Source: Saprospiraceae bacterium
GTDB lineage: Bacteria > Bacteroidota > Bacteroidia > Chitinophagales > Saprospiraceae
DNA length: 64,000 nucleotides
Direction: 5' to 3'
Assembly (NCBI GenBank): GCA_013001595.1
Contig: JABDMH010000094.1
Span: 1-64,000 of the forward strand
The position numbers were made by a program, and so were the translations under genes. Each line of letters opens with the position of its first letter. Positions within the stretch are counted from its first letter, which is position 1. Below, in pieces: positions 9,285 through 33,102 of the stretch. The notes under the pieces are model-generated. The model saw only the letters and a list, made by a program, of their open reading frames with translations. It was not told the DNA's origin and did no database searches.

Positions 9285-9289
9285 TCCCT

Positions 9290-13438: not shown

Positions 13439-13501
13439 ATATTCAGATATCTTTCGTTATGATCAAGAAACAAATTATTTCCAGCATAACCACCCGATTG
13501 T

Positions 13502-15736: not shown

Positions 15737-15745
15737 TAATGTGCT

Positions 15746-15783: not shown

Positions 15784-16063
15784 ACAGTTTGGCGTCTTCT
15801 TTTGCACCAACTCTTCATCACCAGAATCCTTACGTAGCACAGGCTATGCTCGGTTTTGTTTCTTCAACCTGCACAAAATAACTACCCCAACTATACATTT
15901 ACTTACAAGACGACACACTAGTCAACATCCATCACCATTCAGAGAAATTCCCCTTCATTAACCAAAGCTATACTCTTGTTCCCAATTCCGGGCATCAAAT
16001 TGGCAGCAGTCAAATTCTTAATGTCATAATTCCCCATCTCATTGATTAAATAAAATTGGACTA
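15784..16063. other. Intergenic region between VCBS gene and first sulfatase
   Basis: The two flanking genes converge here. A short minus-strand frame overlapping the sulfatase end reads plausibly as protein near 15940-16030 but has no start of its own and no family I recognise. Otherwise nothing is seen. Confidence 0.35.
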
Positions 16064-17488
16064 CTATAAATTTTGTCTCTCTTTGGAGAAAAGTTTCGTA
16101 CTTGCCCCCCCCGGAAGGGTATTTTTCCAACCTCGAATTTGCTCGATCAAATTACTAACGGTGAAGGTGTTCTCCTCTTTTAGGTCATTTTCCTCGTATA
16201 CATCCTGAGTAATATCATAGAGCTCTACATAGCTCAAATCTCTATTGGCAACCAGTTTCCAGTTTTCATCGACAACAGCATATGAGACCCAGTGGTCAGG
16301 TTTTCTCTCATTGATGGGCCAATTACCGCCCATTTTCCAGAATAGCGGTTTAGTCCGAGATGGATAAGGATTGCCTTTCAAGGTGGAAACCTGACTGACG
16401 CCATCAGGCTTATAAGTCCCGGGAAGTTCTACTTCCGCAATTTCGCAGAAGGTAGGTAATAAATCCACTGCCGACAGCAATGAAACAGTATCGATGGCTC
16501 CTGCTTTGATTTTTCCCGGCCACCGTGCAATGAAGGGAACACCTATCCCACCTTCAAAAAGTGCTGCTTTGTAGCCTCTTCTCCCTCCAGTGGTGCCTTT
16601 AGAGCCCGCAATATTGTAACCTACTCCTGTAGCGGTATCATGATACGTTTTCAGTTGAGCAGTACCAACTGCTCTGGCCGGTCCATTATCTGAACTAAAA
16701 ATCACAACGGTATTATCTACCAAATTCATTCGATCCAAAGTATCCAGCACCCGACCGATGCGATGATCAGCGTGCGACAACACTGACGCGTAGATATTGT
16801 CAGTTTCCTCCAAATCACGAAATGCCCATTGATACTTCGGGATAACATGATGCGGGGTGTGTGGTTCATGTACCCATAGGTTGATAAAGAATGGTTTGTT
16901 TTCCCTTTGAGATTCTTCGATAAAGGCGACTGCATTTTCTGCATCCTTATAGAATGGCATTTGTTCTCCAGAGCAGTTAAATGCGCCATAGACGTCATAC
17001 CCATATTTGGCCGGTGTAGGAGAGTCTGAGATCATGTCATTTGAAAGATGCCATTTACCAAAGTGGGCTGTCGCATATCCGTTTTGCTGAAGTAGTCGAG
17101 GTAACAGCGTAACTTCATAATCTAGCCAATCCGGCATGTTTCGCCGCGCGTTTTGCGGCACCCATGCAAAATGCCCATCAATATTGTATCTAGCTGGAAA
17201 TTGGCCCGTCATCACAGCTGTTCGGCTGGGAGAACATACACCACTTGCCACCGTAAACCTCTGAAAATCTGTTCCTTCCGCCACCAGTCGATCAATATTA
17301 GGGGTCTTGACATAAGGATGTCCATGAGCACTTATATCACCCCAACCCCAATCGTCTGCAAAGATGAAGAGAATATTGGTCTTTGTCTGCTCCCCTTTTT
17401 TATTCGGTGGACTGCTAACATCTTCTACACAACCTAGAAAACCAAGAACAATGATGTTCGAAATAATAATCCTGAATATTCTCTTCAT
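16064..17488 (-). CDS. Type I formylglycine-dependent sulfatase (lipoprotein)
   Basis: This 474-residue enzyme begins with a lipoprotein signal ending LGFLGC (Cys20). Metal-binding Asp45-Asp46 lie in FIFADDWGWGD; the formylglycine motif is C85-S-P-S-R; K145 and H147 occur in HFGKWHLS; and D267-N268 lie in FSSDNGPA. All hallmarks of family S1 sulfatases are therefore intact. It would hydrolyse sulfate esters from a polysaccharide or oligosaccharide in the periplasm or at the surface. The Cys must be converted to formylglycine by a maturase not present in this window. It lies at the 3' end of the minus-strand polysaccharide block. The S1 subfamily (possibly S1_16-like) is not certain. Confidence 0.92.
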   Translation of the reverse strand: MKRIFRIIISNIIVLGFLGCVEDVSSPPNKKGEQTKTNILFIFADDWGWGDISAHGHPYVKTPNIDRLVAEGTDFQRFTVASGVCSPSRTAVMTGQFPARYNIDGHFAWVPQNARRNMPDWLDYEVTLLPRLLQQNGYATAHFGKWHLSNDMISDSPTPAKYGYDVYGAFNCSGEQMPFYKDAENAVAFIEESQRENKPFFINLWVHEPHTPHHVIPKYQWAFRDLEETDNIYASVLSHADHRIGRVLDTLDRMNLVDNTVVIFSSDNGPARAVGTAQLKTYHDTATGVGYNIAGSKGTTGGRRGYKAALFEGGIGVPFIARWPGKIKAGAIDTVSLLSAVDLLPTFCEIAEVELPGTYKPDGVSQVSTLKGNPYPSRTKPLFWKMGGNWPINERKPDHWVSYAVVDENWKLVANRDLSYVELYDITQDVYEENDLKEENTFTVSNLIEQIRGWKNTLPGGASTKLFSKERQNL

Positions 17489-17501
17489 CTGTGATTAAGT
17501 T

Positions 17502-17773
17502 TCACTTTTTATTTGCTTTTGCTCCTTCCATGTCCATCAGTTGATCCAAGTTAGTCTTCACTTGATCCTGCGGCATAGCTGAAAGATCTACAATTCTCTG
17601 CGAGATTGTTGGACTTCACTCCAATCTGCTTTCCAATCACGAAGCCCTGGGTTGTTGTTCTCATCCTGAGCGTCAGCCAAGAAAGCGTTCTAGTGATTAT
17701 ACTGAACCCCACGACAATTGCCTTTCCGACTATTAACAGAATTGAAATCCACCTCAATGAAGCAAAATTTAAA
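17502..17773 (-). pseudogene. 3' relic of an unidentified gene, frameshifted
   Basis: On the minus strand a protein-like stretch runs EVDFNSVNSRKGNCRGVQYNH, a stop, NAFLADAQDENNNPGLRDWK, ADWSEVQQSRRE, then shifts frame by one base at about 17590 and continues VDLSAMPQDQVKTNLDQL to an end at 17502 (MDMEGAKANKK). Composition and the smooth sense across the stop and shift show a decayed C-terminus. I do not recognise the family. It sits just upstream of the intact sulfatase and downstream of the GH29 pseudogene. Confidence 0.6.
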
Positions 17774-17927
17774 CTAAAATTTGGATCTTCGATTTATTCA
17801 TTGTTGCCTTCCGATTGACAGGTTCTCCTGTTCCTCCTCTTCTTCATTATGTCAACAGCCTGCTTTACTGTTATCGACCAACTTTTATCGATATAAATCG
17901 ATCAGATCATTTTTTTGCATTTGATAT

Positions 17928-19008
17928 TTACTCTAAAGTTCCTAATGGTGTGAATTTGATCTCTTTTAGGCTCACGGCTTTTGAATCTCCTTCAATGAAA
18001 GAAACGGAGACGATATGGTTTCCTGCCCGGTTAAATTCTAGCAACCCCATTTCGAAATATTGATAAACTGCCGATGAATTTTGCTGATTTTGCACAAATT
18101 CGCCCTCATTATTTTCAATTCTCCACACCAGGCGACTGTTATCGGTATAGTTCAGATCCACCTGGTAATAACCAGGCTCCATCACTTCCACCTCCCATGA
18201 CACTTTGCTGTCCAAAGTCCAGTCTTGAGCTTGGACAATGTGTTTCCATTCTCCAAATTTTTCCATCCATTTTTATTCAGTTATCTGGCAAGATGTTGCT
18301 TTGGCAAATGCGACAGGATTGGAGGTGCGATACACCGGGTCGATGCTTAAACTTTCGTCGACTTCCGATGGCCCTTCTACTTCCAGTTCCACTACTGAAA
18401 TTAGTTTCTCTGGCCGTCTTGATGGCATACTTATTTTAGTCCAATATCCTAATTTACTGGTCTCTACTTTTTGCTTTCGGCCGTCTACCCATAAGTGGGC
18501 TATTTTAATATTGTTCTTCAAGCCGGGAAGGAATATTTCACCACCTATAGGCCAATGGTAAATCAGCAGGTTTAATTTTTTGCCTGAGACCGTAACATCT
18601 CCCCATGGCATCATTCTGCCCCAGGGCGAGGGCCCTGCTTTATAGATTGTTTGTGGGTACCTTTTTACCACTGTCCAGAAGTGCGAAGCGCATTTTGAGC
18701 TTCTATCGGAATGGTGCCATCAGGTTTTGGCCCTACATTGAGCATGTAAGTTCCTCCGCGTGCGACCGTCGATAATACACTCTTCAAAATGCGTTTTGGA
18801 CTTTTCCAGTTTTTGTCATACCAGGCATAACCCCAGGAATCATTGGTCACATCGACCGTCTCCCAAAGCCCTTCCACATTTTTTATTGGAATATTCATGT
18901 CACTTAGGGAAACATAGTCTCCCAGTCCATGACCCGCTCTGCCTGAAATCAATGCGTTAGGTTCAAGCAGCAACTTATTTCCAAGTGCAGGAAAAAATCC
19001 TCAATAGA
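17928..19008 (-). pseudogene. GH29 alpha-L-fucosidase pseudogene, N-terminal half missing
   Basis: Three consecutive minus-strand pieces rebuild the back half of a GH29 fucosidase. The first (18665-19008) has LLEPNALISGRAGHGLGDY, EGLWETVDVTNDSWGYAWYD, NWKSPKRIL and GGTYMLNVGPKPDGTIP, all strong GH29 signatures. At about 18668 a one-base loss in a G run (CAGTGGTAAAA; GTGGGTAAAA expected) shifts into VKRYPQTIYKAGPSPWG of the C-terminal beta-sandwich. That frame meets an in-frame TAA at 18273 and then continues as a carbohydrate-binding-like domain (EPGYYQVDLNYTDNSRLVWR) to 17928. About 200 N-terminal residues with the catalytic nucleophile are absent. The gene cannot make an active enzyme. Confidence 0.88.
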
Positions 19009-19468
19009 AATTCATGACGATTTACCCAAAAGAGATGTAGATTTAATTGCCGTTAGCACAGATTGGCAAGAGCTACTGACAAAAAATATACGCATTCTGC
19101 ACCAGTATGCAACAAGAGCATGGATTGCTTCATTGAAAGCTGCTATCATCTATTGAATCCAAAGCGCTTTCATATTAGGTTCGACAGATTTTATTCAGGT
19201 ATATGCCGCCGTTGATCTCTTTCCGGTCATTTGTTGCAACGCTCTAGGTCATCCATGCTAAAATATAAAGCTCTTTCTTCGTTCGCTGCATTCGTGACTG
19301 TAACAATAGGTCAATACCAATTTGAATGACAGCTTAGACTACTCATAGGACTTTTTATTATCATGATATGCCTAAGCTACTAAAGCAAGGCAATTGCTCA
19401 TTCAAGTTGAAGCCACCAAGCTCTTAGAAAAGACACCGGCGTTATATATCAATACAATTGCTAATAAA
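19009..19468. other. Gap between GH29 relic and second sulfatase
   Basis: No gene is recognised. On the plus strand an open, protein-like stretch (about 18980-19156, containing DVDLIAVSTDWQELLTKNI) lacks a start and matches no family I know; it could be another relic. The rest is AT-rich and full of stops. Confidence 0.35.
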
Positions 19469-21124
19469 TCATTTAGCATGATTTATGATTCTTTCTTTTT
19501 CTGAACTTTTAACGGCCTCTTTATTGATCCATCCCAGCTTAGGGTATGGGCCAATTTTCTTTCTGTACTCGGCTAAAATTAGCTGAAGTTCGTATTTGAT
19601 TTGTGGTTCTTGCCCTACTACATTTTCTGATTGATAGGGATCTTTTTCTAAATCATACAGTTGCTCAGTCGGGGCATCTTCCTTGACTTTATTATCGACT
19701 ACATCGCTGTTTTTTTGTCTGGTCAGTGCAAATGCAGCAGCACCTGCCAATAGGTGATCTCCAACCTGCTTGCCTTGAAAACCACCCGCATCTTGCCCGG
19801 GGATGTAGACCCATTTCCCTTTTCTGATGACCAAATGTCCTGGATTGTTGGGTGAAATAACCAGTACCTCTCTTTGAGGGGCTTCTGCCTTCCCTGTGAG
19901 TTCGAGCAATTGATCTACACTGTCGTGCTCCTTATCTCCGCCTAAAGGTTGATTGGCGATCGAGGCAAATGTAGCAAGGAGGTCTATCTGACTGATCAGA
20001 TGGTCAGACTGACTGTTGGCAGGGATCTTACCTGGCCACTTGGCGATAAAGGGGACGCGATGACCGCCCTCCCAAGCACCAAACTTAAATCCCAACAAAT
20101 CTCCGTTGAGTTTGTGTCCAGCCTTCCATGCATCCTGCCCACCGTGATTTAACATGCCACCATTGTCACTGGTGAAAATCACAAGCGTATTCTCTTCCTG
20201 TCCCATCTCTCTGACCGTGCGCAGAATCTCCCCCACAATCCAGTCTAGTTCATGGATAAAGTCGCCATAGCGTCCTGCTTCGCTCGTACCTTTGAATTGT
20301 GGAGCGGGCGTAAAGGGATGATGGATATTAGTGGTGGCCAGGTAAAGAAAGAAGGGATTTTCTTTGTTTGAAGAATGCGTTTTTTTTAGCCATTCGAGCG
20401 CCTTATTTCTTAGGGTTGTCCCTACTTTTTCATCCTCATAAAACAAATGTGCTTTTTCAGCACCACCTATTTGGCTATATCCTCCTTTTGCCGGCCATTT
20501 TTGTGTGGCAGCCTCCGTATTCATCACAAAGGGATCGGTGGGGTCATAGCCTACAACTGCATGATTCTCTACATATACGAAAGGAGGACCGCTATTCACC
20601 GTGGGTATACCGAAGTAATAATCGAACCCTAACTCTAATGGTCCGGGTTTTAGCTCCTCATCCCAGTTCGGTCCTTCTTCCTGACCAAAGCCCAAATGCC
20701 ATTTGCCCACACAAGCGGTAGCATACCCAGCTTGTTGCAAAACATTGGCAATGGTCGGACTTTTCGTGTCTATGGTCAGCCCCTCGGTAACACCTGGAAT
20801 TGGTCCCCAAAAATTACGTCTCAAAGGGTACCTGCCTGTCAACAAACCATAGCGTGAAGGTGAGCATACCGCTGAGGAGGTGTGTGCGTCTGTAAATCGT
20901 CTTCCGTCTCTAGCCAGTTGATCGATGTTGGGTGTTTGGACAAGCGAAGCTCCATAGCAGCTTAGGTCACCGTATCCCAAATCATCAGCGTTGATAAGTA
21001 TGATATTGGGTCGCTTTTGCATGCTTTCTTTCTCTCCCTTTGAAGTGCAACCTATGCTTATTGTCGCAAGAAGCACTACTGCAATACTTGTTAATACTCC
21101 ACTTATTGTATTTATGAATGACAT
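19469..21124 (-). CDS. Type I sulfatase, arylsulfatase/GalNAc-6-sulfatase-like lipoprotein
   Basis: The 551-residue enzyme starts with a lipoprotein signal ending SIGC (Cys26). It keeps the metal ligands Asp47-Asp48 (NADDLGYGD), the formylglycine motif C87-S-P-S-R, K141 and H143 in GKWHLGFG, and a late TSDNGG Asp-Asn pair. The long insert GFDYYFGIP...PPFVYVEN and the tail QLYDLEKDPYQSENVV are usual for arylsulfatase A/N-acetylgalactosamine-6-sulfatase-like members (S1_15 or a near subfamily, inferred). It would remove sulfate from galactose- or fucose-type sugars. It lies 106 bp from the GH172 gene on the same strand, consistent with one transcription unit. Confidence 0.92.
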   Translation of the reverse strand: MSFINTISGVLTSIAVVLLATISIGCTSKGEKESMQKRPNIILINADDLGYGDLSCYGASLVQTPNIDQLARDGRRFTDAHTSSAVCSPSRYGLLTGRYPLRRNFWGPIPGVTEGLTIDTKSPTIANVLQQAGYATACVGKWHLGFGQEEGPNWDEELKPGPLELGFDYYFGIPTVNSGPPFVYVENHAVVGYDPTDPFVMNTEAATQKWPAKGGYSQIGGAEKAHLFYEDEKVGTTLRNKALEWLKKTHSSNKENPFFLYLATTNIHHPFTPAPQFKGTSEAGRYGDFIHELDWIVGEILRTVREMGQEENTLVIFTSDNGGMLNHGGQDAWKAGHKLNGDLLGFKFGAWEGGHRVPFIAKWPGKIPANSQSDHLISQIDLLATFASIANQPLGGDKEHDSVDQLLELTGKAEAPQREVLVISPNNPGHLVIRKGKWVYIPGQDAGGFQGKQVGDHLLAGAAAFALTRQKNSDVVDNKVKEDAPTEQLYDLEKDPYQSENVVGQEPQIKYELQLILAEYRKKIGPYPKLGWINKEAVKSSEKERIINHAK

Positions 21125-21229
21125 TATATCTTGCTTTGGTTTTCTTCTTCTAATTCCAATTATATACCACCACTTCTGGGCTTGAATCGTACTTAAATGG
21201 GGTAATGATGGTATTTCTGATCCTCAATG

Positions 21230-22888
21230 TTAGTTGATTATTTCCTTAGTAGCGGTCATCAAATTTAGCACACCCGTTGGATTCGGTGTACGATTAGAGG
21301 TAGTAGTCGCATCTCCATACCAGTACACACCTACTCCGTATTCCATATCGCACTCCGTCCAGCTCCACACTTCCATATCTAATTGCATTGAGCTGCCAAA
21401 AGGCATTACATCCAAAGAACGGGTACGTGTTTCGGTACTGTAATTTTGCGTGTTCCGTGTAGCGAATTCAGCTTCGGTTTTCCTATTGTGCATATTATAA
21501 ATAGCACTGGTCGGTTGAGCGTGAAATGGATGTTCGTAAAAATCGTTGCTCATTCCACCCCAGGAATATCCGTAATAATCTTCCGTGCCAGTTCCGAAAA
21601 TGGATGGAAAATCTTCGCCATCGACCCAAATTTTTTCATCGCCTTCACCCCACCATCTTCTAACAGGATTCCAAATGGTCAGTGCATCACCCACATACAC
21701 TCCTCTTCCTTTAATGGTCACATAGTTCCAGTCTGAAAATGGTCTGGTGAGCACTGGGTATTGCCCTCTCCAGGCGGCATGGAAGTATAGGCTCTTTTCT
21801 TCCCAATCGTAGTCTCCTACCACTGCTTTGAGCTCAACTTCAACAGGTTGATCTCCAAGGTTGATGACAGATATTTTTCCTGATTCTTGATAAGGCATTA
21901 CCCATCGACTAGACATGACACCATCATCGGCTACTGTTCTGTACCAACCTTGAAATGGATTGAGGCCAATGCCACTCCCAAAGAAATCCTCAACAGGACA
22001 CCATACGCTTTCCTTACCATCAAACTCCATTTTCAGCACCACAGCTCGTGTGACTATATCATCCTCGTAACTTCCCAATTTCAGTGAAAGGGTACGAACC
22101 GCTGATGTTCCTTCAGGTAGGGCAACTGTTTTCTCATCGCCCCGAATCAAAGTCTGCTTTAACTCCAGTATTTTACCTGTTGTTATGTTTTGGGGTGAAA
22201 GCAAGGTTTTACCTACTTCTTTCACAAGAGCAGTTGCTTGATTAAAGTCTTCCATGGTAAACGTTTTAATAGCAGTTCCTTCGGTATACTCGCGGAAAGT
22301 AAATTGGTAGAAAAATGGTAGCTCGGTGACGGTAATCTTGCAGCTTTCTGCGTAGGGAATCGGAAAAAATGAGACGGAGGAACGTAAAGACTTATGAGCA
22401 AATGGGAAAGGAAACAAACCTGTCCCATTTAGGAGTCCAAGCATATTGCCTTCCACGACAGGCTCAGTTGCCCCATCCAAATAGATCTTAATAATATTTG
22501 TTGTACTTGGGTCTCTCGGATTCAGGTATGGCATCCAGGTGCGAACAATTGCCCCTGGACTTTGATGATCCATGAGTACCCATTCCTTATCTCCATTATG
22601 TTCTTCGATACGGATAAAATTATGGTCATCTTCTTTTCTATTGTAATCCTTGTTGGCAAACCATCCCACTGTATCCTCAGGAGTTTTGGAAGCCCTATTG
22701 TAGCTACTCTCTTGTCTCAAGCGAAAATCTTTTTCTGGAAACCGTGAAACAACGTCCCGATCTATCATTTCATTGAGAAGAAACTCCATACTAATCTCTC
22801 TTTCTTGGTGGCAACATGAAACTAAAAGTGCCATGACAATCAAAAGTAAATTGTTTCTTAATCCTCTAATTTTTGAGCTGGTTTTCAT
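21230..22888 (-). CDS. DUF2961/GH172 family glycosidase, lipoprotein
   Basis: The 552-residue product has a lipoprotein signal (LLLIVMALLVSC, Cys25/26). Family features include SPGAIVRTWMPY, an IKIYLDG beta-strand, GLFPFPFAHKSLRSSVSFFPIPYAESCKI, DFFGSGIGLNPFQGWYR, EDFPSIFGTGTEDYYGYSWGG and FYEHPFHAQPTS, which match the two-jelly-roll DUF2961 fold now classed as GH172 (characterised members act on fructofuranose and arabinofuranose linkages). The acidic residues in GTGTEDYYG are the expected catalytic region. The substrate here is unknown. Its start overlaps by one base the stop of a 40-codon relic of a second GH172 gene directly upstream. Confidence 0.85.
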   Translation of the reverse strand: MKTSSKIRGLRNNLLLIVMALLVSCCHQEREISMEFLLNEMIDRDVVSRFPEKDFRLRQESSYNRASKTPEDTVGWFANKDYNRKEDDHNFIRIEEHNGDKEWVLMDHQSPGAIVRTWMPYLNPRDPSTTNIIKIYLDGATEPVVEGNMLGLLNGTGLFPFPFAHKSLRSSVSFFPIPYAESCKITVTELPFFYQFTFREYTEGTAIKTFTMEDFNQATALVKEVGKTLLSPQNITTGKILELKQTLIRGDEKTVALPEGTSAVRTLSLKLGSYEDDIVTRAVVLKMEFDGKESVWCPVEDFFGSGIGLNPFQGWYRTVADDGVMSSRWVMPYQESGKISVINLGDQPVEVELKAVVGDYDWEEKSLYFHAAWRGQYPVLTRPFSDWNYVTIKGRGVYVGDALTIWNPVRRWWGEGDEKIWVDGEDFPSIFGTGTEDYYGYSWGGMSNDFYEHPFHAQPTSAIYNMHNRKTEAEFATRNTQNYSTETRTRSLDVMPFGSSMQLDMEVWSWTECDMEYGVGVYWYGDATTTSNRTPNPTGVLNLMTATKEIIN

Positions 22889-23008
22889 TAAAGTATTCTG
22901 CTTCTTAAATTATTGATTGACAAATTTGTTTTGATTTCTCTAATAGATACGGGGTTGAACAAATTTCCGTGAGTAGAGGTAGGAGCGGCATCTCCATAGC
23001 AGTACCAG
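22888..23008 (-). pseudogene. C-terminal relic of a second GH172/DUF2961 gene
   Basis: The minus strand reads VCWYCYGDAAPTSTHGNLFN then PVSIREIKTNLSINN and ends at a TAA whose last base-pair is shared with the ATG of the intact GH172 gene. The intact gene ends with VYWYGDATTTSNRTPNPTGV followed by LNLMTATKEI, so this is the same C-terminus in diverged form. Nothing upstream of 23008 remains recognisable. Confidence 0.75.
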
Positions 23009-23200
23009 CATACACTTTTTATCGATATTGGTGAACATAGCAAGAATCCGACAACAATATATCGATTATCAAATTCGCTTTAAGTGCACTAGTGAATGTA
23101 CTCCGGAAAGTGCCAACCTCATAAAATGAATCTATTTTGGATAAGATTTGCACGTTTTCGAGATTAGGTGATACATGAGTATCAGCTGATTGAGAAAAAT

Positions 23201-23244
23201 GGAAAGGTTACCAAAAGGGCCATTTTTGATCTGGTGACCTTTTC
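23201..23244 (-). terminator. Stem-loop downstream of the GH117-like gene
   Basis: GGAAAGGTTACC (23201-23212) pairs with GGTGACCTTTTC (23233-23244) at 10 of 12 positions. It lies 21 bp past the stop of the minus-strand gene ending at 23265 and could terminate or stabilise its mRNA. The loop of 20 bases is long and no T-run follows closely, so this is tentative. Confidence 0.35.
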
Positions 23245-23264
23245 GGAGTGGATTCACAAGTTGG

Positions 23265-24293
23265 CTATTTCTTAATATTCATTTCATAGCGAAGCAAATA
23301 AGTCAGCCCTTTTCTGCCTTTCATAGCAATTCCCCATCCGGGAATTCCGACGTTAGGATTTCCATGCTCCAAATGCGGACGATATAAGCCTGGTGCTTTA
23401 GGGATGGCTTTCAAACTGTCATACCGCATGCTGAATTGGAGCCCATCTTCGGCATAATTTATTGACTGACTTAGGGAAGCAAGACAAGCCACTCCTTCAC
23501 CTTCCCTCCATATAAGTACCTCATGCCCCCTGTCCAAGAGATTGCCCATTTTCACAAATGGACCGTCCGGCGTATTTGCCAGGGCTACTCCCATTTCAGT
23601 AAGCCGTGGGCCTTCTTTGCCATGTTCTATGCATCTGCCTTTGTAATAGAGCCATATTTTACCATCGCGCACCAACATACTGGCATCATCTGCACGATAG
23701 CTATCAAAATCTGACGAGACCTCACTATGAGCAATTACCGGATTGTTTCGTATCCGCCTGAAGGGACCATCGGGACTGTCTGCCACGGAAACTCCAATAG
23801 CTGTGAAATCATTTGTGCTGTTGTTTTCAAATTTTTTATTAAGATTTCCAGGAGTAGGCTTTACCGCAGTATAATACAGATAGTACTTCCCATTATGGGC
23901 CAATATGTTTGGCGTAAATACGGAGTGACTGTCAAAAGCACCCTCTTCACCAAGCCCAAGCGCCATACCTTGTTCTTTCCAGGTATGTCCTTCATCTTCA
24001 CTTGTAGCGTACCAGATGGTGGCCCAATAACCAGGTGTGATAGGGCTATCCATTCGACTATACCACACGTAGTACATGTTTCCTACTTTAATCACGTCAC
24101 TAGGGTCTCTTCTATTATATACGGAATCTACCCCAATCCCTGAGATGTCAGAATAGGAAAAGCTCCTATGTTCCAAATTTTCCTCCCCAATAGTTTCCTT
24201 CTTGGAGTTCCCTAAAGAGCAAGACTTCATCAGAAAAATGGATATAACAAGGAGGCCAAATGCTTGAAATTTATTTGTTGATTTTTTTATCAT
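23265..24293 (-). CDS. GH117/GH43-like five-bladed propeller glycosidase, lipoprotein
   Basis: The 342-residue protein has a lipoprotein signal ending LMKSC (Cys25). The propeller opens with NRRDPSDVIKVGNMYYVWYSR (Asp63 or Asp66 as candidate base), continues with WYATSEDEGHTWKEQG, SVFTPNILAHNGKYYLYY, FDSYRADDASMLVRDGKIWLYYKG and closes with APGLYRPHLEHGNPNVGIPGWG. This order and spacing recall GH117 (alpha-1,3-L-neoagarooligosaccharide hydrolases), which acts on 3,6-anhydro-L-galactose; related GH43/GH32 clan enzymes are the alternative. The N-terminal helix-turn-helix dimerisation arm known in GH117 is short or absent. Cleavage of an alpha-L-galactose-type end is inference. Confidence 0.75.
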   Translation of the reverse strand: MIKKSTNKFQAFGLLVISIFLMKSCSLGNSKKETIGEENLEHRSFSYSDISGIGVDSVYNRRDPSDVIKVGNMYYVWYSRMDSPITPGYWATIWYATSEDEGHTWKEQGMALGLGEEGAFDSHSVFTPNILAHNGKYYLYYTAVKPTPGNLNKKFENNSTNDFTAIGVSVADSPDGPFRRIRNNPVIAHSEVSSDFDSYRADDASMLVRDGKIWLYYKGRCIEHGKEGPRLTEMGVALANTPDGPFVKMGNLLDRGHEVLIWREGEGVACLASLSQSINYAEDGLQFSMRYDSLKAIPKAPGLYRPHLEHGNPNVGIPGWGIAMKGRKGLTYLLRYEMNIKK

Positions 24294-24484
24294 GTCAATG
24301 TACTTAGATTAGATCTTATCGAGTTCGCCGTTGAACTCGACAACTTCATAGTTTTTCAGACATCTTGTTTGATTCCAGATTGAAAATAGGAACTAACTGT
24401 TCCTGGTAACATTGGAATTGCCACTCCAACAATTCTTTTCACTTTATTGAACATAGCTAAGGAATTGGGAATCAGTTCTCAAAC

Positions 24485-25508
24485 ATGATGACCACTTTGT
24501 CCAGAATTGGTTTTGATTCGATGATGATATGCCCTTTCATAGATGGGCCTGAAGCGTCCCCTGACCTCTAGCGGATATTTCTGTATGCTTATAACTTCCT
24601 CCTATGCTAGTGTAGGGCTCAAAGGGAACATCATAACCCAAGTTGTATTTGGCGGTGTATTCAAACCCACGGGCTAGGCGGTTATCATATGCACCATAAA
24701 GATCAACGCCCTGCTTCCAGGCCGCTCCCAAAAATCCGATGCCCATCTGAACATACAACTGATCCCGGCCGCTTTCCTGACACTGTCCAAAATCATTGAA
24801 ATAATTGAGGATGGCTCCATTGCCATCCCCCTCCAGGAAATAATTAGTGGCTCTATCGAAGATCTCTTGGTTGTCGACAAAAACACCGATACTGAGCATG
24901 GTCTGTATCATCGACGCATCCCAATTGCCATTGGCCCAGTCAAAGAAATCCTTTATGACCTCATAATGGACATCCAGCAACATCTTTTCAAACTGTGCAA
25001 TGTCCTCTTCCCGCCAAAGATCAGAAGTATGTCGGATGATTTCAGCACCATTGATCATACTGACTCCTGTCATTCCTACTAGGGGTTTTGCATCGTGCTC
25101 GCCTATGGATTTTAAGGTAGACGACCAATTATTGAGCATGTCTATCGATTTTTGGGCATGTCGGGCATCTCCCGTTACTACCCACTGTATGGCTTGAGAA
25201 TAAACTGCGGCAGCATCCAACTCTAAATCGCTGGCTCCAATGTCTGGCTTATTATAAGCTCCTCGTAGCACATTGGTACTGGCCTTCGACTGCCAGTCCA
25301 TATCTGAAATATCGGCCTCTAGCAACATCTTCCATCCACTAAACCAAGGTTCTTCTTTAGCCAGAACCCTTTGCTTAATAAAGTCGAGTTCTGCTTGACT
25401 GTGCAGTAAACCTGGGTGGATGAAATTTGATGGATCTGAGGATTCTTGAGCATGGGAATGTGCCACCACTTGCACCAGAACTGCAAAGATTATCAGAATA
25501 TATTTCAT
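24485..25508 (-). pseudogene. Alginate-lyase-like (alpha/alpha) toroid gene, frameshifted and 3'-truncated
   Basis: The frame from 25508 encodes 323 residues: signal peptide (MKYILIIFAVLVQVVAHSHA), FIHPGLLHSQAELDFIKQRV, NNWSSTLKSIGEHD, GVSMINGAEIIRH, GNWDASMIQTMLSIGVF, ECQ-like QCQESGRDQLYVQMGIGFLG and EISARGQG, all typical of the alginate lyase (PF05426) family. It stops early at 24537. Removing one base at about 24557 restores RFRPIYERAYHHRIK, the expected continuation, which then ends at 24485, still roughly 80 residues short of usual length. The catalytic toroid is thus mostly present but the C-terminal part is lost. Activity of the truncated product is doubtful. Confidence 0.75.
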
Positions 25509-25996
25509 ATTTATATAGTTAGACGTTCAGACCCTTTCACTCCTGTGGCAGATCATCGATATTCCAATCTTTGTTTAAGCTATTATTCTTATTGGCCTTG
25601 TCAATTTTCCCATGGGCATATGGCACTTTATCCACTTATTGAATACGAGCACAACCAGGCAAACTCATCAAGCTCTCGAAGTTCATCATTTCTTTGCATC
25701 TGTTACGCTTAATTTCAAGAGGTGTTTTGGAAGTGAAGCTGGCAACTTGTCTATCACAAAGGTTTTCTTCTTCAACTTTCAATCGAATATTCAAGTCTCC
25801 CCTTTATCGTTTATCCAGCATTTTAAGTATTTACCTATAAAATGGCTGCCAGGTGAGCCACCTTGGCCCATAATGCATTGGAGGACATTTCCACTACGGT
25901 CTGATCAATGATCTCAATTTTACTATCAATTTCTGCGTTTTCTACGCTCGGTAATTATGATCCACATTTTCCAGCTTTTCATTTATCCATGTAACA
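25509..25996 (-). pseudogene. Relic zone: pieces of a six-hairpin protein and of a beta-helix enzyme
   Basis: Two vestiges are visible on the minus strand. At about 25655-25712 the reading KEMMNFESLMSLPG matches KEIMSFESSMGLPG of the intact six-hairpin gene (33090-34976), then breaks at a stop. At 25840-25890 the reading PPMHYGPRWLTWQPFYR matches the extreme C-terminus (PPMHYGPRWLPWQPFYR) of the beta-helix gene ending at 39437; its stop is lost or altered. The remaining bases show scattered stops in all frames. So this gap is a graveyard of copies of genes still intact further along the block. Confidence 0.7.
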
Positions 25997-28171
25997 TTAT
26001 TTTTCCCTTGCAATTTCGACGTCCATAGTTGTGAAATCTATGGCTTTCATCCAATCCACATGACCGACCCTGTTGGTCCAAATCGGATTAACGTTTTGAG
26101 CATTGGCAGTTTCTGCATAATCTATCCAGTACTCTTTTGCAGTGCGTAGATGCGCCACAGCTTTCTCCTGATAGTACCCTTCGTCTGTGGCACGATATAA
26201 AGCCAGCTGTGTTGCTCCATCAATTTTATTAGCATAATACTTGCCCAAGTATGCGATAGTCTTAATATCATGAAGCGTTGCTTTGAGTTCTATACCTTCC
26301 GCACTTATGCTCAGTCCCCCTGCTAGCTTAAGTGCATTATCTGCATATGCATGTAGCATCTGCGATACCTCCAAGGGGGTTTTCAATTCAGTATTACTAT
26401 CTGCCAAGACCATTTGCACATAGTCAGGAATGGATTGAAATCCAGAATTTTTATGGGGCTTTACATTGATAAATGAGTTTACATCATGAAAATCAGTTTC
26501 TGTCTTGGTAAACCGCTCACGACCTTTGCAACCCTCGATATACCACATAAAATCAAGCCACCCCCAGTGAAAACCGGTGGTAGTAGGGTACACCATACTG
26601 GCATCTTGCCAGGCTGTAAATAATTTCTGAGCGTCTGTTTCAGGAAAACGAGCTTGGAGTATTCCAATGATTCTTTCATTTGGCACATCAGGATCATAGG
26701 CAAAACGTCCCCAAAGCATCCAGTGGTACCAATGTTTCGTCAGTTCTATTTCCCTCGGTCCATCAGGATTCTTAGTAGTAAATTCTCGACCCCAGACCCA
26801 CTGGTCAGATCCATAATAATAACCTTGTGAGACCTCATGAGGAATGTTTTTCACAAATTGCCTTACAAAATCTGGCGCACCCCATCGAAAATAGAAAGCA
26901 TCATCATTGCGCAAGGTCCAAATGGTTTTGATGTCGTTCGCTTTGATATCTTCCACAAATTCATAATGATATGGTTGATCCACCGCGCTCATCACATGTG
27001 CCTTTGCATATTTGAAGCTGAAGATGAAATCTATATTTTCGTTATCAATCAATGGTTTAAATCTCTCAGAAATATCTTTAGCCGCAGCCATATGCTGGCG
27101 GTGAATAAATCTGATTTTCCTATCAGGCATTTCGGCCGCTGCATCAAGGACTCCTTGACCATACGTTTCGAAAGCCCAATCTTCTTTCTCTTGAAAAGTA
27201 TTGCCGTACATGTTTTCTCCAGTCGTGAGGCCAATTCCTGCTAGATCAGGATATGTCACAAACATCTGCTTTACGCTTTTTCTAAAATAATCCCGGGTAA
27301 CAGCGTTGTCTATCTGGTCTGTAATTCCATACTTATCTTTGGCCCCATGTACGAAAATATTCCAGGTGATCACATAAAAATCGACATTCCGGCTTTTTCC
27401 ATAGGCCATGACCTTCCTCCAAAACTCAATTTTCTCCTCAATCGTAATGTTCTTTATGATTTCCGGGTTGGCCAAGATCTCCGGCGAACAAAAGCCCCAA
27501 CCATTGGTATTGTAATGTTCATCAAACTGATGGGTAGACCTCTGTACATCGTCCAGGGCAACATCTTCATAACCGGGGACTTTCACCAGAGAGGGAAACG
27601 GATGTAAATTCCATAGAGAAATATAATTATACCGATGAAGGGCAAGGTTATCGATATACTCCTTCCAGAAATCGAAGTTCCACATCTCCGGAATATTTTT
27701 CTGAGCCACATCCGATACATCCGTATAGCTTGGCGTTCGCACATCAAGCGGAATGTTAAACTTGGTACCCCGCATTTGCATGTAAGGATTGTTTACAGCT
27801 GACTGGACGCCTTCCAAGCCAGAAATACTAATCTGTTCCGCCAACTCAAGGCCACCGTACATGACGCCGGCAGCATCTTGACCAGAAACCTGAATTTTAC
27901 CTTGATTGTTGGAGAGTTGAAAACCTTCAGTCCCGATGCTTGCATTTTCAGTTAATGATAGCACTATGTCTGCACCTTCTTCCCCTGCTGTTAAAACTTT
28001 AAGTCCTTTGGCCTGAAGCTTGGCTCTGATTTCATCGACTGCAAACTGAATTTGAGGATGATCTCTTTCAGCAAACAATCTTACCGTATTCTCATTATCA
28101 CATCCCATGCTTGACCAAAGGCAAATCACCATCAAGATTACAGCCGGTAATTCAAAATATTTCGATTTCAT
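25997..28171 (-). CDS. GH20/GH67-like TIM-barrel glycosidase, lipoprotein (paralogue A)
   Basis: I chose the ATG at 28171, which gives a lipoprotein signal ending SSMGC (Cys24); the longer frame adds 47 residues overlapping the upstream gene. Residues 25-140 resemble the N-terminal domain found before GH20 and GH67 catalytic barrels (VRLFAERDHPQIQFAVDEIR, AAGVMYGGLELAEQI). The barrel follows, with ALHRYNYISLWNLHPFPSLVKVPGYE, VDFYVITWNIFVHG, YPDLAGIGLTTGENM (Glu is a candidate catalytic residue) and TIWTLRNDDAFYFRWG. The C-terminal 200 residues are helical. Such proteins occur in Bacteroidota glycan clusters; a proven activity is not known to me. It is a paralogue of the gene at 29294-31402. 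Confidence 0.7.
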   Translation of the reverse strand: MKSKYFELPAVILMVICLWSSMGCDNENTVRLFAERDHPQIQFAVDEIRAKLQAKGLKVLTAGEEGADIVLSLTENASIGTEGFQLSNNQGKIQVSGQDAAGVMYGGLELAEQISISGLEGVQSAVNNPYMQMRGTKFNIPLDVRTPSYTDVSDVAQKNIPEMWNFDFWKEYIDNLALHRYNYISLWNLHPFPSLVKVPGYEDVALDDVQRSTHQFDEHYNTNGWGFCSPEILANPEIIKNITIEEKIEFWRKVMAYGKSRNVDFYVITWNIFVHGAKDKYGITDQIDNAVTRDYFRKSVKQMFVTYPDLAGIGLTTGENMYGNTFQEKEDWAFETYGQGVLDAAAEMPDRKIRFIHRQHMAAAKDISERFKPLIDNENIDFIFSFKYAKAHVMSAVDQPYHYEFVEDIKANDIKTIWTLRNDDAFYFRWGAPDFVRQFVKNIPHEVSQGYYYGSDQWVWGREFTTKNPDGPREIELTKHWYHWMLWGRFAYDPDVPNERIIGILQARFPETDAQKLFTAWQDASMVYPTTTGFHWGWLDFMWYIEGCKGRERFTKTETDFHDVNSFINVKPHKNSGFQSIPDYVQMVLADSNTELKTPLEVSQMLHAYADNALKLAGGLSISAEGIELKATLHDIKTIAYLGKYYANKIDGATQLALYRATDEGYYQEKAVAHLRTAKEYWIDYAETANAQNVNPIWTNRVGHVDWMKAIDFTTMDVEIAREK

Positions 28172-28193
28172 ATATATTGGGTTAACATTGAGA

Positions 28194-29234
28194 TTAAAGT
28201 TGAGTGGTGTTTTGTTTGAACTTTTCCAGGTCAAGCAAATACAACCCACATCCCTGACCTGCTGCTGCCTTTGCATAGGCCGATTGAAAAGCGATATATT
28301 TTCCATCATCACTAACTACGGGATTCGATCCTTTGTATCCTTCGATATCGTTAAAATGAGTTAATCGCTCCATTATTTCCCCACTTCCATCCAGCTTCAT
28401 TCTGTAGATATCAATTTGCTTTATTCCCAAATGACAATGGGCATCGCATTCTATGAGTGTTGACTTACCATCGGGAAATATTCCTTCTGGCTCGCTGTAT
28501 TCCGTTGGTGATTTGGAGTGGTTGGTGATTACACCTGTCTCAAGATTATAAGTCATCACCTCACTGGTAAATAATCCTGCCTCAGTATTTCCATATTGTG
28601 TCCAGGTAAATTCTACTTCTTCCGGTCGAATAAAATTCTGCGACTCCAGGATACCTTCGTATTTAATACCATCAACCACAACCGAATCGTTATCGATGAT
28701 CAAGGTTTTATCGATGATGTTCGAAGAATCCTCATTAATCACAATCATTCCAGAATAGATCACTTGCTGATCGGGCGTCCAGACAATTTTCATATCGGTA
28801 CGTGAAATGGTTGGTCCTTCGTCCATTTTTTCGTTCAGATTGTGAATTTTTCCAGTCCCCTTTTTCATGATCTGAGCATAGGCATCGTGGCGTTCTGGTC
28901 CGCAGGTAAACAGTAAATCGCCATTTGACAAGGCAAATACACGGTAATATCCATATTCTTTCGGATGCATGGTTGAATCGGTTATCTGGGTGATTTCTTT
29001 GGTAGCGATATCGGAGTAGAAAACATTTCCACCGGCTTTATCTACAAAGTAAACTCCTTTATTGTCGAGTGCCCACTCAACACGTTGGCCATATGGTGTT
29101 AAGGGAGTAATGTATTCAGGAAGATGTTCCGCGGGAAAGCATCCAATGATCTCAGTTCTATTTGCATTCTTACAGGACGAAACTCCTAGCAAAAGAAGGA
29201 GTATCCATGCAGTAATCGATAAAATTGATTTCAT
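28194..29234 (-). CDS. PD40/TolB-like beta-propeller lipoprotein
   Basis: Start set at the ATG at 29234 because it gives a lipoprotein signal (MKSILSITAWILLLLLGVSSC, Cys21); the longer frame reaches back into the neighbouring gene. The 346 residues have WD40-like (PD40) blades: RVEWALDNKGVYFVDKAGGNVFYSDIATKEITQITD, GPTISRTDMKIVWTPDQQVIYSG, SEPEGIFPDGKSTLIEC and SNPVVSDDGKYIAFQSAYAK. Similar blades occur in oligogalacturonate lyase (PL22) and TolB. It lies between two paralogous GH20/67-like genes with gaps of only 22 and 59 bp, so it is almost certainly co-transcribed and works on the same glycan as a lyase-like or binding protein. Confidence 0.75.
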   Translation of the reverse strand: MKSILSITAWILLLLLGVSSCKNANRTEIIGCFPAEHLPEYITPLTPYGQRVEWALDNKGVYFVDKAGGNVFYSDIATKEITQITDSTMHPKEYGYYRVFALSNGDLLFTCGPERHDAYAQIMKKGTGKIHNLNEKMDEGPTISRTDMKIVWTPDQQVIYSGMIVINEDSSNIIDKTLIIDNDSVVVDGIKYEGILESQNFIRPEEVEFTWTQYGNTEAGLFTSEVMTYNLETGVITNHSKSPTEYSEPEGIFPDGKSTLIECDAHCHLGIKQIDIYRMKLDGSGEIMERLTHFNDIEGYKGSNPVVSDDGKYIAFQSAYAKAAAGQGCGLYLLDLEKFKQNTTQL

Positions 29235-29293
29235 AGATAAATTATCTTTAGTTGGTTTAGTAGCACCAATGCAAATTGTCAAAAGACTATCAA

Positions 29294-31402
29294 TCATTCT
29301 TTCACGGACTCCATGGCTATTGTAATGTCCTTCTCCACATCTTCTAGATGCTCTCTCCATGAAAATTCATCGTCAAACTGATGAGGCATAACTGCAACAT
29401 TATATATTTCCACCAGATCGACCATTTTTTGCCAGTAGTTTTTGCTTGTCTCCAAGTGTTGGACAGCTTTATCAAGCGAATCAATCTTACCTTTCCTGAA
29501 CTGCTCCAGTGCCACGCCCCCTCCTACTTTCGAAGCAAAATACAATCCGAAGTTGGCCCAGAACTCCAGATCAGTGAGCTCGATCTCAAGTTCGGCAGAT
29601 ACACCCTGCTTTCTTAGATTTTCAACAATTTCTAGAATTCGCGTTGATTGTTCTTCCGTCTCATCAGCCAATGCAAGTGGTGTAGTATGGGCGGTTTTGT
29701 CGTAATTACCAGCAACAAAATCAGAGATATTTACATACGATGAATCAAGCACATTCCGGGAAATAAACTTGTCAATATCGATGAAGGTACCGTGGTTGGT
29801 TGTAAATCCCTCGGAGTACAGGGTACCATCCCAGGTACTTCCAAAAAAAGAGGCCAATCGATTCGGGTTTTTGGATGCTAGTTTCCACGCTTCCAACAAA
29901 TCTGTACCATCCGGGAGATCAAACTTTTTTGCCAATGATTCTGCAAAATATTCATCTGGAACCTTCTTGTTATACATAAGGTTTCCCCAAACCTTATAAA
30001 ACAGCCATTGCCTTTGGAAAGCATAATCCCATGTACGATGTTCGTCTTTGGTAAAGTAATCTTTTGCCGGAATGTATGTCTCAGAACCGATGATGCATCC
30101 ACCGATATATTGCTGACTATTCAGATCCAGAAAATCCCGTATGAAATCAGGATCTCCCCATCGCAGGACAAAGAAGTCTTCATTACGCATGGTCCAGAGG
30201 CCTTTATATTTTTCAGAATATGGTTCCCAATAGGTGTTGGTGAGCATTCCGCCATGGACAATGGATAATTTTGGAGATGAGTGGGCATGTGACCAATTGA
30301 ACTTGAATGAAATCCAGACATCCTCATCAAAGCCCATGTTTTCTACCGCTTGTCGGGTTAACTTTTCAGCCGGTACACTGACAGAGCCCGCACTTCGCTT
30401 ATCTGCAGAGAGTGGTGCCCGGTAGAGCAACCTGGCTTTGCGGTTGGCCGCCTTCAAACCTGCGATCATGGTCTGATCCGCCCATTTGCTTCTCTCCTCG
30501 GAGGTCATGCCTCCCATGCGTTCACCCAGTGTAATACCAATACCAGTCAGGTCTTTATATGTATCGATCGTTGTGGTGACCACCTCGCGCATATACCCTT
30601 CAATATGCTCATTGCTGATACCTTCACCAATGAAACCACCACCATCTTCTGACATATAATTCCCTGCCCCATATTTCTCAGTAAAACCTTGCGGCAGGAA
30701 GATATTCCAGTTTACCACAAAGGTCTGAACGCCACGCGCTTGCGCCATGCCAAAAAGTCCCTTCCAAAAGGCTTCCCATTCCGCCATTTCTTCATCACTG
30801 AATGGTGAAACATCTGCGTACGATGGAGCTTTCACCATATACATATAAGGATGCATGTTCCAAAGGGTGAGTGCATTGAATTTGTTCTCCACCATCATAT
30901 CCAGGTAAGACTCCCAATACTTCAGATCTCTACAAGTCTCCATGTGCAAAGCGAGGTGCTCACCACTTCGGTACGAATACCAGGGCAGGTTGAATTTGAT
31001 GGCCCGAAAGTCGTGATGCGACCGGATGGTTTTTTCTTCGATTTGAGACCATGAACTGCCGTTTGAGAGTTGCGTATTAATGTCAAGCAATCCATACAAT
31101 AATCCTCGAGCACATTCAGAATTAAGGATGAATGTTTCTCTAGTTCTTGAAATAGAAAATCCATCATTTTTTTCTGAGTCCCTATCGGCTTGAGGTACCA
31201 GCTCTAAGCTAAGATTAGCATCCCGTGCATCTTCAGCAAATGATATCTTTCCACCTGATGCTGATCTTTGATTTTCCAGTTTTTCAATGGCATAGTTGAG
31301 TTCTTCCAGAACAATCGGATCAGCATAAATTATTATATCGATCGACTTATTCTGACATCCCAAAATGAGAATCAAAGGCAGGAAATAGATTATTCTTTTC
31401 AT
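29294..31402 (-). CDS. GH20/GH67-like TIM-barrel glycosidase, lipoprotein (paralogue B)
   Basis: Start at the ATG at 31402 gives the lipoprotein signal MKRIIYFLPLILILGC (Cys16). The layout matches paralogue A: an N-terminal alpha/beta domain (IYADPIVLEELNYAIEKLENQ, CARGLLYGLLDINTQL), then the barrel with ENKFNALTLWNMHPYMYMVKAPSY, VQTFVVNWNIFLPQG, YKDLTGIGITLGERM, and GLWTMRNEDFFVLRWGDPDFI, then a helical tail. Conserved Glu/Arg in LGERM and the Asn-Glu/Asp pair in RNEDFF (RNDDAF in A) mark the likely active site. The two are clearly homologous yet well diverged, so they probably act on different linkages of one glycan. Specific activity unknown. Confidence 0.7.
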   Translation of the reverse strand: MKRIIYFLPLILILGCQNKSIDIIIYADPIVLEELNYAIEKLENQRSASGGKISFAEDARDANLSLELVPQADRDSEKNDGFSISRTRETFILNSECARGLLYGLLDINTQLSNGSSWSQIEEKTIRSHHDFRAIKFNLPWYSYRSGEHLALHMETCRDLKYWESYLDMMVENKFNALTLWNMHPYMYMVKAPSYADVSPFSDEEMAEWEAFWKGLFGMAQARGVQTFVVNWNIFLPQGFTEKYGAGNYMSEDGGGFIGEGISNEHIEGYMREVVTTTIDTYKDLTGIGITLGERMGGMTSEERSKWADQTMIAGLKAANRKARLLYRAPLSADKRSAGSVSVPAEKLTRQAVENMGFDEDVWISFKFNWSHAHSSPKLSIVHGGMLTNTYWEPYSEKYKGLWTMRNEDFFVLRWGDPDFIRDFLDLNSQQYIGGCIIGSETYIPAKDYFTKDEHRTWDYAFQRQWLFYKVWGNLMYNKKVPDEYFAESLAKKFDLPDGTDLLEAWKLASKNPNRLASFFGSTWDGTLYSEGFTTNHGTFIDIDKFISRNVLDSSYVNISDFVAGNYDKTAHTTPLALADETEEQSTRILEIVENLRKQGVSAELEIELTDLEFWANFGLYFASKVGGGVALEQFRKGKIDSLDKAVQHLETSKNYWQKMVDLVEIYNVAVMPHQFDDEFSWREHLEDVEKDITIAMESVKE

Positions 31403-31554
31403 ATTCATCATGATTTCTTCAAGTTCATTGTAGAAACACTACCTGTAATGGGCGCTATTCCTAAAACTTTCTACGATTTGATTTCATACGTAAACTTTGA
31501 TAATTCGTAAGGTTTTGGCTTAATTTCTATATTGAAATTCATTCCACAGATCAA

Positions 31555-32574
31555 TTATGGAGCTAGTTTGGGACGATAATATTCTAGTCGCTCAGTTTTG
31601 ACAAACTTCAGTAGTTTCTTCACGATCTTTTCTTGGTCATCCATGCTTAATTTTGCAAACCGATTAACAGCCTCAATATTCCGGTCCAGATGCTCCACGC
31701 TCTCGGTCCCGCAAACCATGGAGGTGATGGGTTGGGAAAGATTGAACCAGATCACGTCTTCGAGGGTGAGGTAATTGGGGATGATGGGATCATCTGTTTC
31801 CCACCCGTATTCGTTTCCAGTAAAAAATCCCCCTCCTGCCAAGGGTTTCATTCCCATTACTCCGTATGCTCTTTGGTGCAACTCCGGAATTAATGCAGTG
31901 GTGAAACTATCGGGCTTCGCGACATCAAGGGGATTGACGGGGATCTGCACTGCCACAAAAGGATCTTTCCCTGCCACTCGCTCCATTAGTCTTCTCTGGG
32001 CCGACGTCATACGGTGCCCGGTAAATCCCAGGTATTTTACTTGTCCTTTCTGTTGTGCCTCAAGCATAACTTCGAGCACGCCAGCGGCGATACGGCCATC
32101 CACATCCGATGGATCTCTGACGGCATGCATATAAAGCAAATCTATCTGGTCACAATTCATGCGACGTAAGGAGTCCTCAATCTGCTTCTTAGAGCCTGCG
32201 GCAGTCTTTGCATTGGTCTTCGTTGCCAGAAAGATCTGATCACGGTACTTAGGGGTTAGGTATTTCCCAAAGAGTTCCTCAGAATAGCCATCATGATAGA
32301 TCCAAGCGGTTTCATAGTACCGGCATCCCAGTTCCATACCGCGCTCAATCATAGCCTGTGAAACTTTCTCATTTTTCGCACGCCCAACATGATAGCCACC
32401 TAAACAGTATATACTCAATTCTACACCAGTTTTTCCCATTGGGCGGGTAGGCAGTAAATCACCTAATTTATCAGATTTACCAGTAGTTAAGGGTGCAGCC
32501 AATAATCTTGGGACCGATAGCGCTGCAAGACTTCCCGCAGCAATTTGCTTAATAAAATTTCGTCTTTTTACCAT
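31555..32574 (-). CDS. Tat-exported aldo/keto reductase
   Basis: The 339-residue protein starts with a twin-arginine signal (VKRRNFIKQIAAGSLAALSVPRLLAA). The rest is an AKR barrel: RPMGKTGVELSIYCLGGYHVG, GCRYYETAWIYHDGYSEELFGKYL, FLATKTNAKT, LRRMNCDQIDLLYMHAV and VKYLGFTGH. The catalytic tetrad reads Glu88, Tyr93, Lys119 and His150; the usual Asp of the D-T-A motif is Glu here. It would reduce or oxidise a sugar or other carbonyl with NAD(P)H, presumably taking up its cofactor before Tat export. Placed 10 bp from a beta-helix fragment and within the glycan block, it could act on a released sugar; this is inference. Confidence 0.82.
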   Translation of the reverse strand: MVKRRNFIKQIAAGSLAALSVPRLLAAPLTTGKSDKLGDLLPTRPMGKTGVELSIYCLGGYHVGRAKNEKVSQAMIERGMELGCRYYETAWIYHDGYSEELFGKYLTPKYRDQIFLATKTNAKTAAGSKKQIEDSLRRMNCDQIDLLYMHAVRDPSDVDGRIAAGVLEVMLEAQQKGQVKYLGFTGHRMTSAQRRLMERVAGKDPFVAVQIPVNPLDVAKPDSFTTALIPELHQRAYGVMGMKPLAGGGFFTGNEYGWETDDPIIPNYLTLEDVIWFNLSQPITSMVCGTESVEHLDRNIEAVNRFAKLSMDDQEKIVKKLLKFVKTERLEYYRPKLAP

Positions 32575-32583
32575 ATCAATTAG

Positions 32584-33102
32584 TTATTTATAGATTGGAA
32601 GGTGAGGCGGAAACCAAGAATGTAGTGAGCATATTCTCAGTACACTAATTAAAGATGGCACAGTAGCCACTATTTCGGTCTCACCTTCTAGGGGATAATA
32701 ATATAATTTATCTTCATTCCTATCGAGATACCACTCACCAGGTTGATCTAACGTAATCCGACCTCCCTCCAAATAATAAGCATCATCGCCTTCAATGACC
32801 CGGCCTCCCATTCTTGTAGAAATAATCTTCTGATTTTTACGGTCAATCTGTTCTATGGGCATGTGATACTCCAACCATTTATTAAAGACAACAACAACCC
32901 CGTCTTCAACACTTTCTAAATAAGATTTGTCTTCATCATTATAATAAAAATCAAACGATCTTCCGCGACGCACTTCTTGAGTATCCGCTCCTTGATTCTC
33001 GGGAACTCGCAAATGTCCACTGCTGAGTGTACGAGCTGGGATCGCTCGAAGGTCGTTGACCCAAACATTGAATCTTAGATTAGTCCTGGTCATTCCTTCC
33101 AT
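32584..33102 (-). pseudogene. Fragment of a GH141-like parallel beta-helix enzyme
   Basis: The frame encodes 172 residues without signal peptide and begins inside a domain. FNVWVNDLRAIPARTLSSGH and GEWYLDRNEDKLYYYPLEGE are signature segments from the N-terminal region of large right-handed beta-helix glycosidases (GH141 and relatives, usually 600 residues or more). The preceding residues and the whole beta-helix are missing, and the last 20 residues read as out-of-frame nonsense. Its apparent ATG overlaps the 3' end of the upstream six-hairpin gene by 13 bp, which looks like a deletion junction and not a true start. Confidence 0.7.

Follow-up and report, generated by a model that had tools for sequence, protein, structure and literature searches.

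The stretch analysed here (the window; bases 1-64000 of a 155,589-base contig in the 6.2 Mb, 161-contig draft genome of a Saprospiraceae bacterium) contained a block of carbohydrate-related genes at 16064-46529 (~30 kb), which is likely to be a mosaic island that targets a sulfated polysaccharide, probably one that contains fucose and uronate; it would have been assembled by transfer and duplication and would now be losing its genes singly. The block held 17 open reading frames (ORFs) of at least 150 amino acids (aa), all on the minus strand, and was flanked by genes of other kinds. Pfam and PDB sequence searches showed intact-looking carbohydrate enzymes interleaved with gene remnants, and 15 genes of the block were intact, 4 of them sulfatases. 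We infer that the substrate glycan is sulfated and contains fucose, perhaps together with uronic acid. A preliminary description of this DNA had proposed that relics alternate with intact-looking genes, which was borne out by domain and homology searches across the block. It had also counted at least seven broken pieces, and six of the seven were recovered by homology (a GH29 pseudogene, a GH172 tail, an alginate-lyase-domain gene, a six-hairpin scrap, a beta-helix tail and a GH141 fragment), while the seventh, at 17.5 kb, was not. Features described below lie on the minus strand unless the plus strand is given.

Among the larger remnants, the GH29 pseudogene (17926-18979) consisted of the C-terminal part only (Pfam Alpha_L_fucos, 2.8e-19 on one piece). 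Compared with an intact 614-aa homologue, it began at residue 258 and was traceable to residue 555, with ~257 N-terminal residues gone, a frameshift near 18.67 kb and one in-frame stop. The N-terminal part had no match upstream to 19480 among the GH29 proteins compared, and the coding score over 18.98-19.47 kb (0.11-0.29) lay within background. The remnant showed 27-36% identity to those other GH29 genes of its own genome that matched it and is therefore no recent duplicate of one of them; seven further GH29 matches in the genome were free of stops. The alginate-lyase-domain gene (24537-25508; PF05426 profile positions 54-268 of 275) was frameshifted near its C-terminus. Its frame was lost after HTEISARGQG, and a 415-aa homologue (36% over 316 residues) extended ~60 residues beyond that point. 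Because most of the Pfam domain was kept, some activity may remain in the product. A search of the own genome at E 1e-15 gave no second match to this gene.

The GH141 fragment (32584-33102; GH141_M 3.5e-08; PDB 9rx2 and 5mqp) was a middle piece with both ends missing. The frame was open over 172 codons and had the composition of coding sequence, the best alignment of the piece was to residues 251-288 of the 624-residue BT_1002, and it aligned with residues 142-303 of a 706-aa homologue. The GH141 homologues compared had at least 617 aa, and the fragment covered only a middle part of them. A 35-nucleotide (nt) match of the fragment at 7.56 kb was dropped, and the stretch there holds a small unrelated ORF. 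At 7583-7972, a 129-aa ORF of coding composition resembled a stress-responsive Dabb protein by eye.

The other pieces were short scraps. The tail of a second GH172-type gene (22908-23028, approximate limits) matched 21292-21326 over 35 nt at 86%, and with gaps allowed it aligned over a longer distance to the end of the gene at 21230-22888, which is intact. A third beta-helix gene was represented by its final codons and its stop (25830-25885), which matched 39436-39491 at 80% of 56 nt, and 16 of 18 residues were like those of the intact gene at 39437-41410. The six-hairpin scrap (25655-25717) matched 33697-33759 at 76% of 63 nt (84% over the best 44 nt), inside the intact gene at 33090-34976. 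These three pairs confirmed the earlier claim that three relics match intact paralogues of the block. The first list of pieces was extended by a GH141-like scrap (25563-25655; 31 aa, 45% to residues 69-99 of the GH141 fragment), by the head of a beta-helix gene (36521-36631; start and upstream region, the rest absent; 68% of 111 nt to 41334-41437) and by the dispersed repeats at 15759-15923, 23087-23266 and 46764-46800. Apart from the GH141 fragment, the scraps carried stops and frame changes, and they differed from their paralogues at 14-32% of bases. A control of 200 dinucleotide shuffles per gap was run for four gaps, each searched against the block genes, and no shuffle matched the real score for the gap at 22889-23086 (0/200), at 25.5 kb (0/200) or at 36.5 kb (0/200).

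The "unidentified relic" at 17489-17925 was rejected, as it had no family, no homologue and a coding score within or near background. Over 17.5-17.8 kb, Pfam gave no match and no homologue below E 0.1 was found in the loci compared, and the coding score in six scoring windows was 0.13-0.33 against background 90th and 95th percentiles of 0.31 and 0.34.

Relatives of the block genes pointed to a mixed origin for the island. Sulfatase S1, at the left end of the block, and the beta-helix gene at 41468-43480 were similar (76% and 83% aa, respectively) to direct neighbours in a genome of another genus (G061; contig C306, stretch 13106-16537). The same pair lies 24 kb apart in the window, and the bulk of the block may therefore have been inserted later. 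A relative of S1 was also present in G004, and relatives of GH138-like gene a occurred in G001 and G002, of the same genus; gene a showed 60% identity to the G001 gene and 61% to part of a G061 relative. The relatives' contigs examined carried single block genes or pairs at most. The six-hairpin gene was found in only 1 of 298 genomes of the order, its own, at E 1e-20, and its closest relative found (56% over residues 1-627) belonged to Pelagicoccus, of the phylum Verrucomicrobiota, so that a transfer between phyla is possible. The lyase-domain gene was found in 7 of 345 genomes of the class, its own included, at E 1e-15. The comparison with the syntenic locus of relatives, which the preliminary description had suggested, showed other genes at the flanks in same-genus genomes at the sites compared: the gene beside the radical-SAM gene was not a block gene in 5/5 same-genus genomes, and the gene beside the FG-GAP gene was not a block gene in 3/3 same-genus contigs compared (G002, G003 and G004), G001 having a fourth match to the FG-GAP gene.

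Duplication may have left its mark in the order of the scraps. The order beta-helix, six-hairpin, GH141 repeats the order of the block genes, the GH141 bit comes after the six-hairpin bit just as, in the other copy, the GH141 fragment comes after the intact six-hairpin gene, and the GH172 tail lies directly upstream of the intact GH172 gene; duplication followed by deletion therefore fits these pieces. They also favour an account in which a single cluster expanded once in tandem and its surplus copies then decayed neutrally as the diet changed, and the six-hairpin and GH172 scraps add to it, since their changes look neutral (2.2 silent to 12.8 replacement changes in the six-hairpin bit, 1 to 4 in the GH172 bit). 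The earlier proposal of tandem expansion with later deletion and point decay fits the GH172 tail and the beta-helix, six-hairpin and GH141 scraps, but does not cover the GH29 half or the lyase-domain gene, for which no close paralogue was found. The beta-helix scrap also argues otherwise. Its tail differed from the paralogue by 9 synonymous and 2 nonsynonymous changes, and none of 20,000 neutral simulations was as silent. Because the differences are mostly silent, this copy seems to have worked long after the split, having diverged as a working gene and died late instead of being junk from birth. The contrast between silent and replacement changes over 11-20 codons is a hint and no clock, and the 80% nucleotide identity of the tail, a best local stretch and thus biased, stands against 56% over the whole gene between the two intact beta-helix genes.

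A changing glycan diet was not shown, since intact beta-helix, six-hairpin and GH172 copies remain in the block and the stop-free GH29 matches elsewhere in the genome, which leaves the lost functions partly still present. Sulfatases moreover decay at other loci too, and a single tandem expansion with neutral decay and diet change is on balance an unlikely explanation. Purifying selection on surviving genes was examined by codon position instead of by synonymous divergence (dS), which was saturated. Nine gene pairs, which involved 6 of the 15 intact genes, were 33-47% identical at third positions and 54-92% identical at first and second positions; these six genes have been under purifying selection, their third positions being nearly saturated while the protein sequence was kept.

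In the own genome the sulfatase model gave 118 matches (~111 loci after merging of neighbouring pieces by eye), and beyond the window five sulfatases were clearly broken: contig C160 carried three of them within 9 kb, and C44 and C117 had one each. The three on C160 stood in a row between longer ORFs (stretch 10001-30000, local positions 8749-16929). The count of broken genes excludes four further matches, a partial one on C47 and those at the edges of contigs C61, C103 and C147. Broken sulfatases at three other places in the genome suggest that decay is not special to the block. A rough relic survey compared 20 carbohydrate-gene stretches (364,335 bp) with 20 controls (346,785 bp) by an automatic count of uncurated hits, some of them small genes or end-cut genes, with a protein set that favours carbohydrate genes. 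By this count, 5 of the 9 hits in carbohydrate-gene stretches were split between frames against 0 of the 8 in controls, where one hit (L225) was in fact the frame-broken C117 sulfatase, its second half called as a gene. The window itself gave 4 hits, of which one was a real gene missed by the gene caller; there were 3 relic hits in the block, and one 20-kb stretch of the same contig gave none. The survey gives a weak hint that decay may be commoner in carbohydrate islands.

The frame-split counts also speak against the frameshifts and joins being assembly or sequencing artefacts of the draft, which is a very improbable explanation. The assembly is in 161 contigs and repeats lie near some junctions, but lost halves and scraps of 11-31 codons are no base-call errors, so that the earlier statement on missing halves holds, and the divergence of the scraps from their paralogues shows that they are not mis-joined copies. 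Least probable is a role of the fragments as short working genes or as regulatory leaders: the coding composition of the open GH141 frame, the mostly silent change in the beta-helix tail and the largely retained Pfam domain of the lyase-domain gene favour it, but the GH141 piece is only the middle of far longer homologues, the other scraps bear stops and frame changes, and neither the 5 genomes of the same genus nor, at limited depth, 60 others of the family gave a DNA-level match to them.

Several points weigh against the mosaic island as read here. The gap at 17489-19468, which includes the GH29 half, failed the DNA shuffle control (54 of 200 shuffles reached the real score), and the GH29 half in it rests on protein similarity. 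Several scraps have only 11-31 codons, which makes their ancestry uncertain. In the relic survey the plain numbers of hits were alike (9 in carbohydrate-gene stretches, 8 in controls), and the controls were impure, with sulfatases in 3 of 20. The FG-GAP gene adjoins the antiporter gene, as it does in the window, only in G002, and the one compared in G003 and G004 could be a paralogue. The same-genus genomes are fragmented and 85-97% complete, which leaves absence elsewhere in them unproven, and the family-wide DNA search scored 4 candidates per genome. None of the relatives' genomes searched had the ancestral block intact, so the order of events is inferred, and true paralogy and import of a related cluster are indistinguishable here.

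Under the mosaic-island reading, genes of different origin would have been gathered by transfer and duplication into one island, and the copies would have come from duplication inside the block or from repeated import of related clusters. Deletions would have taken most of each dead copy and point mutations would have come after, while dispersed repeats may have aided rearrangement of the site. Redundant copies seem to have been lost first, but with the GH141 gene and the lyase-domain gene a function may really have disappeared. The surviving enzymes probably still act on the polysaccharide. A more specific possibility, which we regard as doubtful, is that the beta-helix head (36.52-36.63 kb) and tail (25.83-25.89 kb) come from opposite ends of a single third beta-helix gene, whose middle (~610 codons) would have been replaced by a 10.6-kb cassette with the ROK gene, the six-hairpin gene, the GH141 fragment, the aldo/keto reductase, the lipoprotein-like gene and both GH138-like genes. 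If so, the island would grow by cassette insertion into its own genes, and the relics would be by-products of growth and loss.

The dispersed repeats were of two kinds. R1 (23087-23266, plus strand) was a near-palindromic element of ~175 bp that resembles a miniature inverted-repeat transposable element (MITE) and abuts the stop of the GH117-like gene (23.27 kb). It had 50 matches in its own genome, itself included, which came to ~37 places after merging of halves by eye, and versions spanning 300-500 bp exist. Its fold had an energy of -66.8 kcal/mol, the alignment showed inverted ends and a conserved apex, and by eye TA stood at both ends of several aligned copies. R1 is short, multi-copy and bounded by terminal inverted repeats, as MITEs are. 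Relatives of R1 were present in G001 and G002 of the same genus and, at 74-77%, in G014, G057 and G075 of other genera, and Rfam gave no match to it. R2 (15759-15923, plus strand, ~165 bp) lay at the block's left edge; its own genome had 14 further matches, and four of the five same-genus genomes (G001, G002, G003 and G005) had matches too. At the right edge, 46764-46800 was a solo end of the R1 element (81% of 37 nt). Lying at both edges and inside the block, these repeats may have helped rearrangement. The Rfam search covered 16-36 kb with a cut-off of E 0.5 and was empty throughout.

The four intact sulfatases were S1 (16064-17488; Pfam PF00884, 3.3e-49), S2 (19469-21124; PF00884, 6.5e-59) and the genes at 43622-45010 (PF00884, 2.9e-43) and 45033-46529 (PF00884, 1.1e-40), the last at the right end of the block, and none had a stop within the sulfatase-model match. 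Between them lay the GH172-type gene (21230-22888; DUF2961, PF11175 1.4e-65, with similar PDB chains), the anhydrogalactosidase-like GH117 gene (23265-24293; phmmer 5.4e-38 to PDB 4ak5) and two GH138-like genes, a (25997-28312; PF02838 5.2e-08 and paralogy to gene b, its start probably further inside the ORF) and b (29294-31411; phmmer 6.4e-21 to PDB 6hzf, BPa0997, over query residues 8-322), which shared 25.7% identity. The labels GH117, GH138 and GH172 are those that we take to follow from the names of the matched entries. A gene at 28194-29360 was lipoprotein-like by eye and had no family match. Frameshifts at the overlapping ORFs of 28.2-29.4 kb were considered and rejected, as signal-peptide-like starts lie inside the ORFs (by eye) and the overlap looks like a matter of start codons.

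The remaining intact genes were an aldo/keto reductase (31555-32574; PF00248 5.2e-32), the six-hairpin, GH88-like gene (33090-34976; Pfam and homology), a ROK-family gene (35317-36516; PF00480 2.6e-24), a GH95 gene (36765-39293; PF22124 8.3e-175) and two beta-helix genes, of which the one at 39437-41410 is the paralogue closest to the beta-helix scraps and the other (41468-43480) is the one with the G061 relative. SprB repeats and secretion sorting domains were also among the domain matches and probably indicate a member of the Bacteroidota. PDB sequence searches gave no match for the lyase-domain gene, the lipoprotein-like gene and one beta-helix gene.

Compared with known systems, the block is like the fucoidan clusters of marine bacteria in that sulfatase, GH95, GH29 and GH141 sequences stand together. 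One report places GH141 members in most of the fucoidan polysaccharide utilization loci (PULs) identified (PMC12786026). The block is unlike such clusters in that its GH29 and GH141 genes are broken, and the presence of GH117-like, GH138-like and lyase-domain genes suggests that the polymer is more mixed. It shares with a canonical Bacteroidota PUL a co-directional cluster of enzymes for one glycan class, but a Pfam scan of all 17 ORFs of at least 150 aa found neither SusC nor SusD. The locus of Pelagicoccus sp. SDUM812005 has its six-hairpin gene (56% identical) followed by a sulfatase. A GH95-like gene (30%) lies within 10 kb, as does a beta-helix gene whose GH141_M match is weak and falls below the cut-off. 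The locus differs in phylum (Verrucomicrobiota), in a TonB receptor gene upstream and in gene order. In Tenacibaculum maritimum, a genomic island carries intact PUL genes next to an end that consists mostly of pseudogenes, and the scars named there are of transposase, Vgr and Rhs genes, whereas those of the block are of carbohydrate enzymes (PMC5561996). A Maribacter genome is also described as pseudogene-rich, without a link to such loci (PMC10942906). Pseudogenes beside such loci therefore have precedent, and no account of the same pattern of relics was found in searches of open-licence papers.

What is seen in the block is best read as ordinary turnover of a mosaic island, for which no new system or mechanism is needed. 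The gain and loss of genes for algal polysaccharides are usually inferred from presence and absence between genomes, and several of the steps are readable here in one locus, which shows redundant copies variously decayed, one copy or more that seems to have been functional during its early divergence, and enzymes without backup that may have been lost. With ~110 sulfatase loci and broken ones elsewhere, the genome could serve to measure the turnover of such families.

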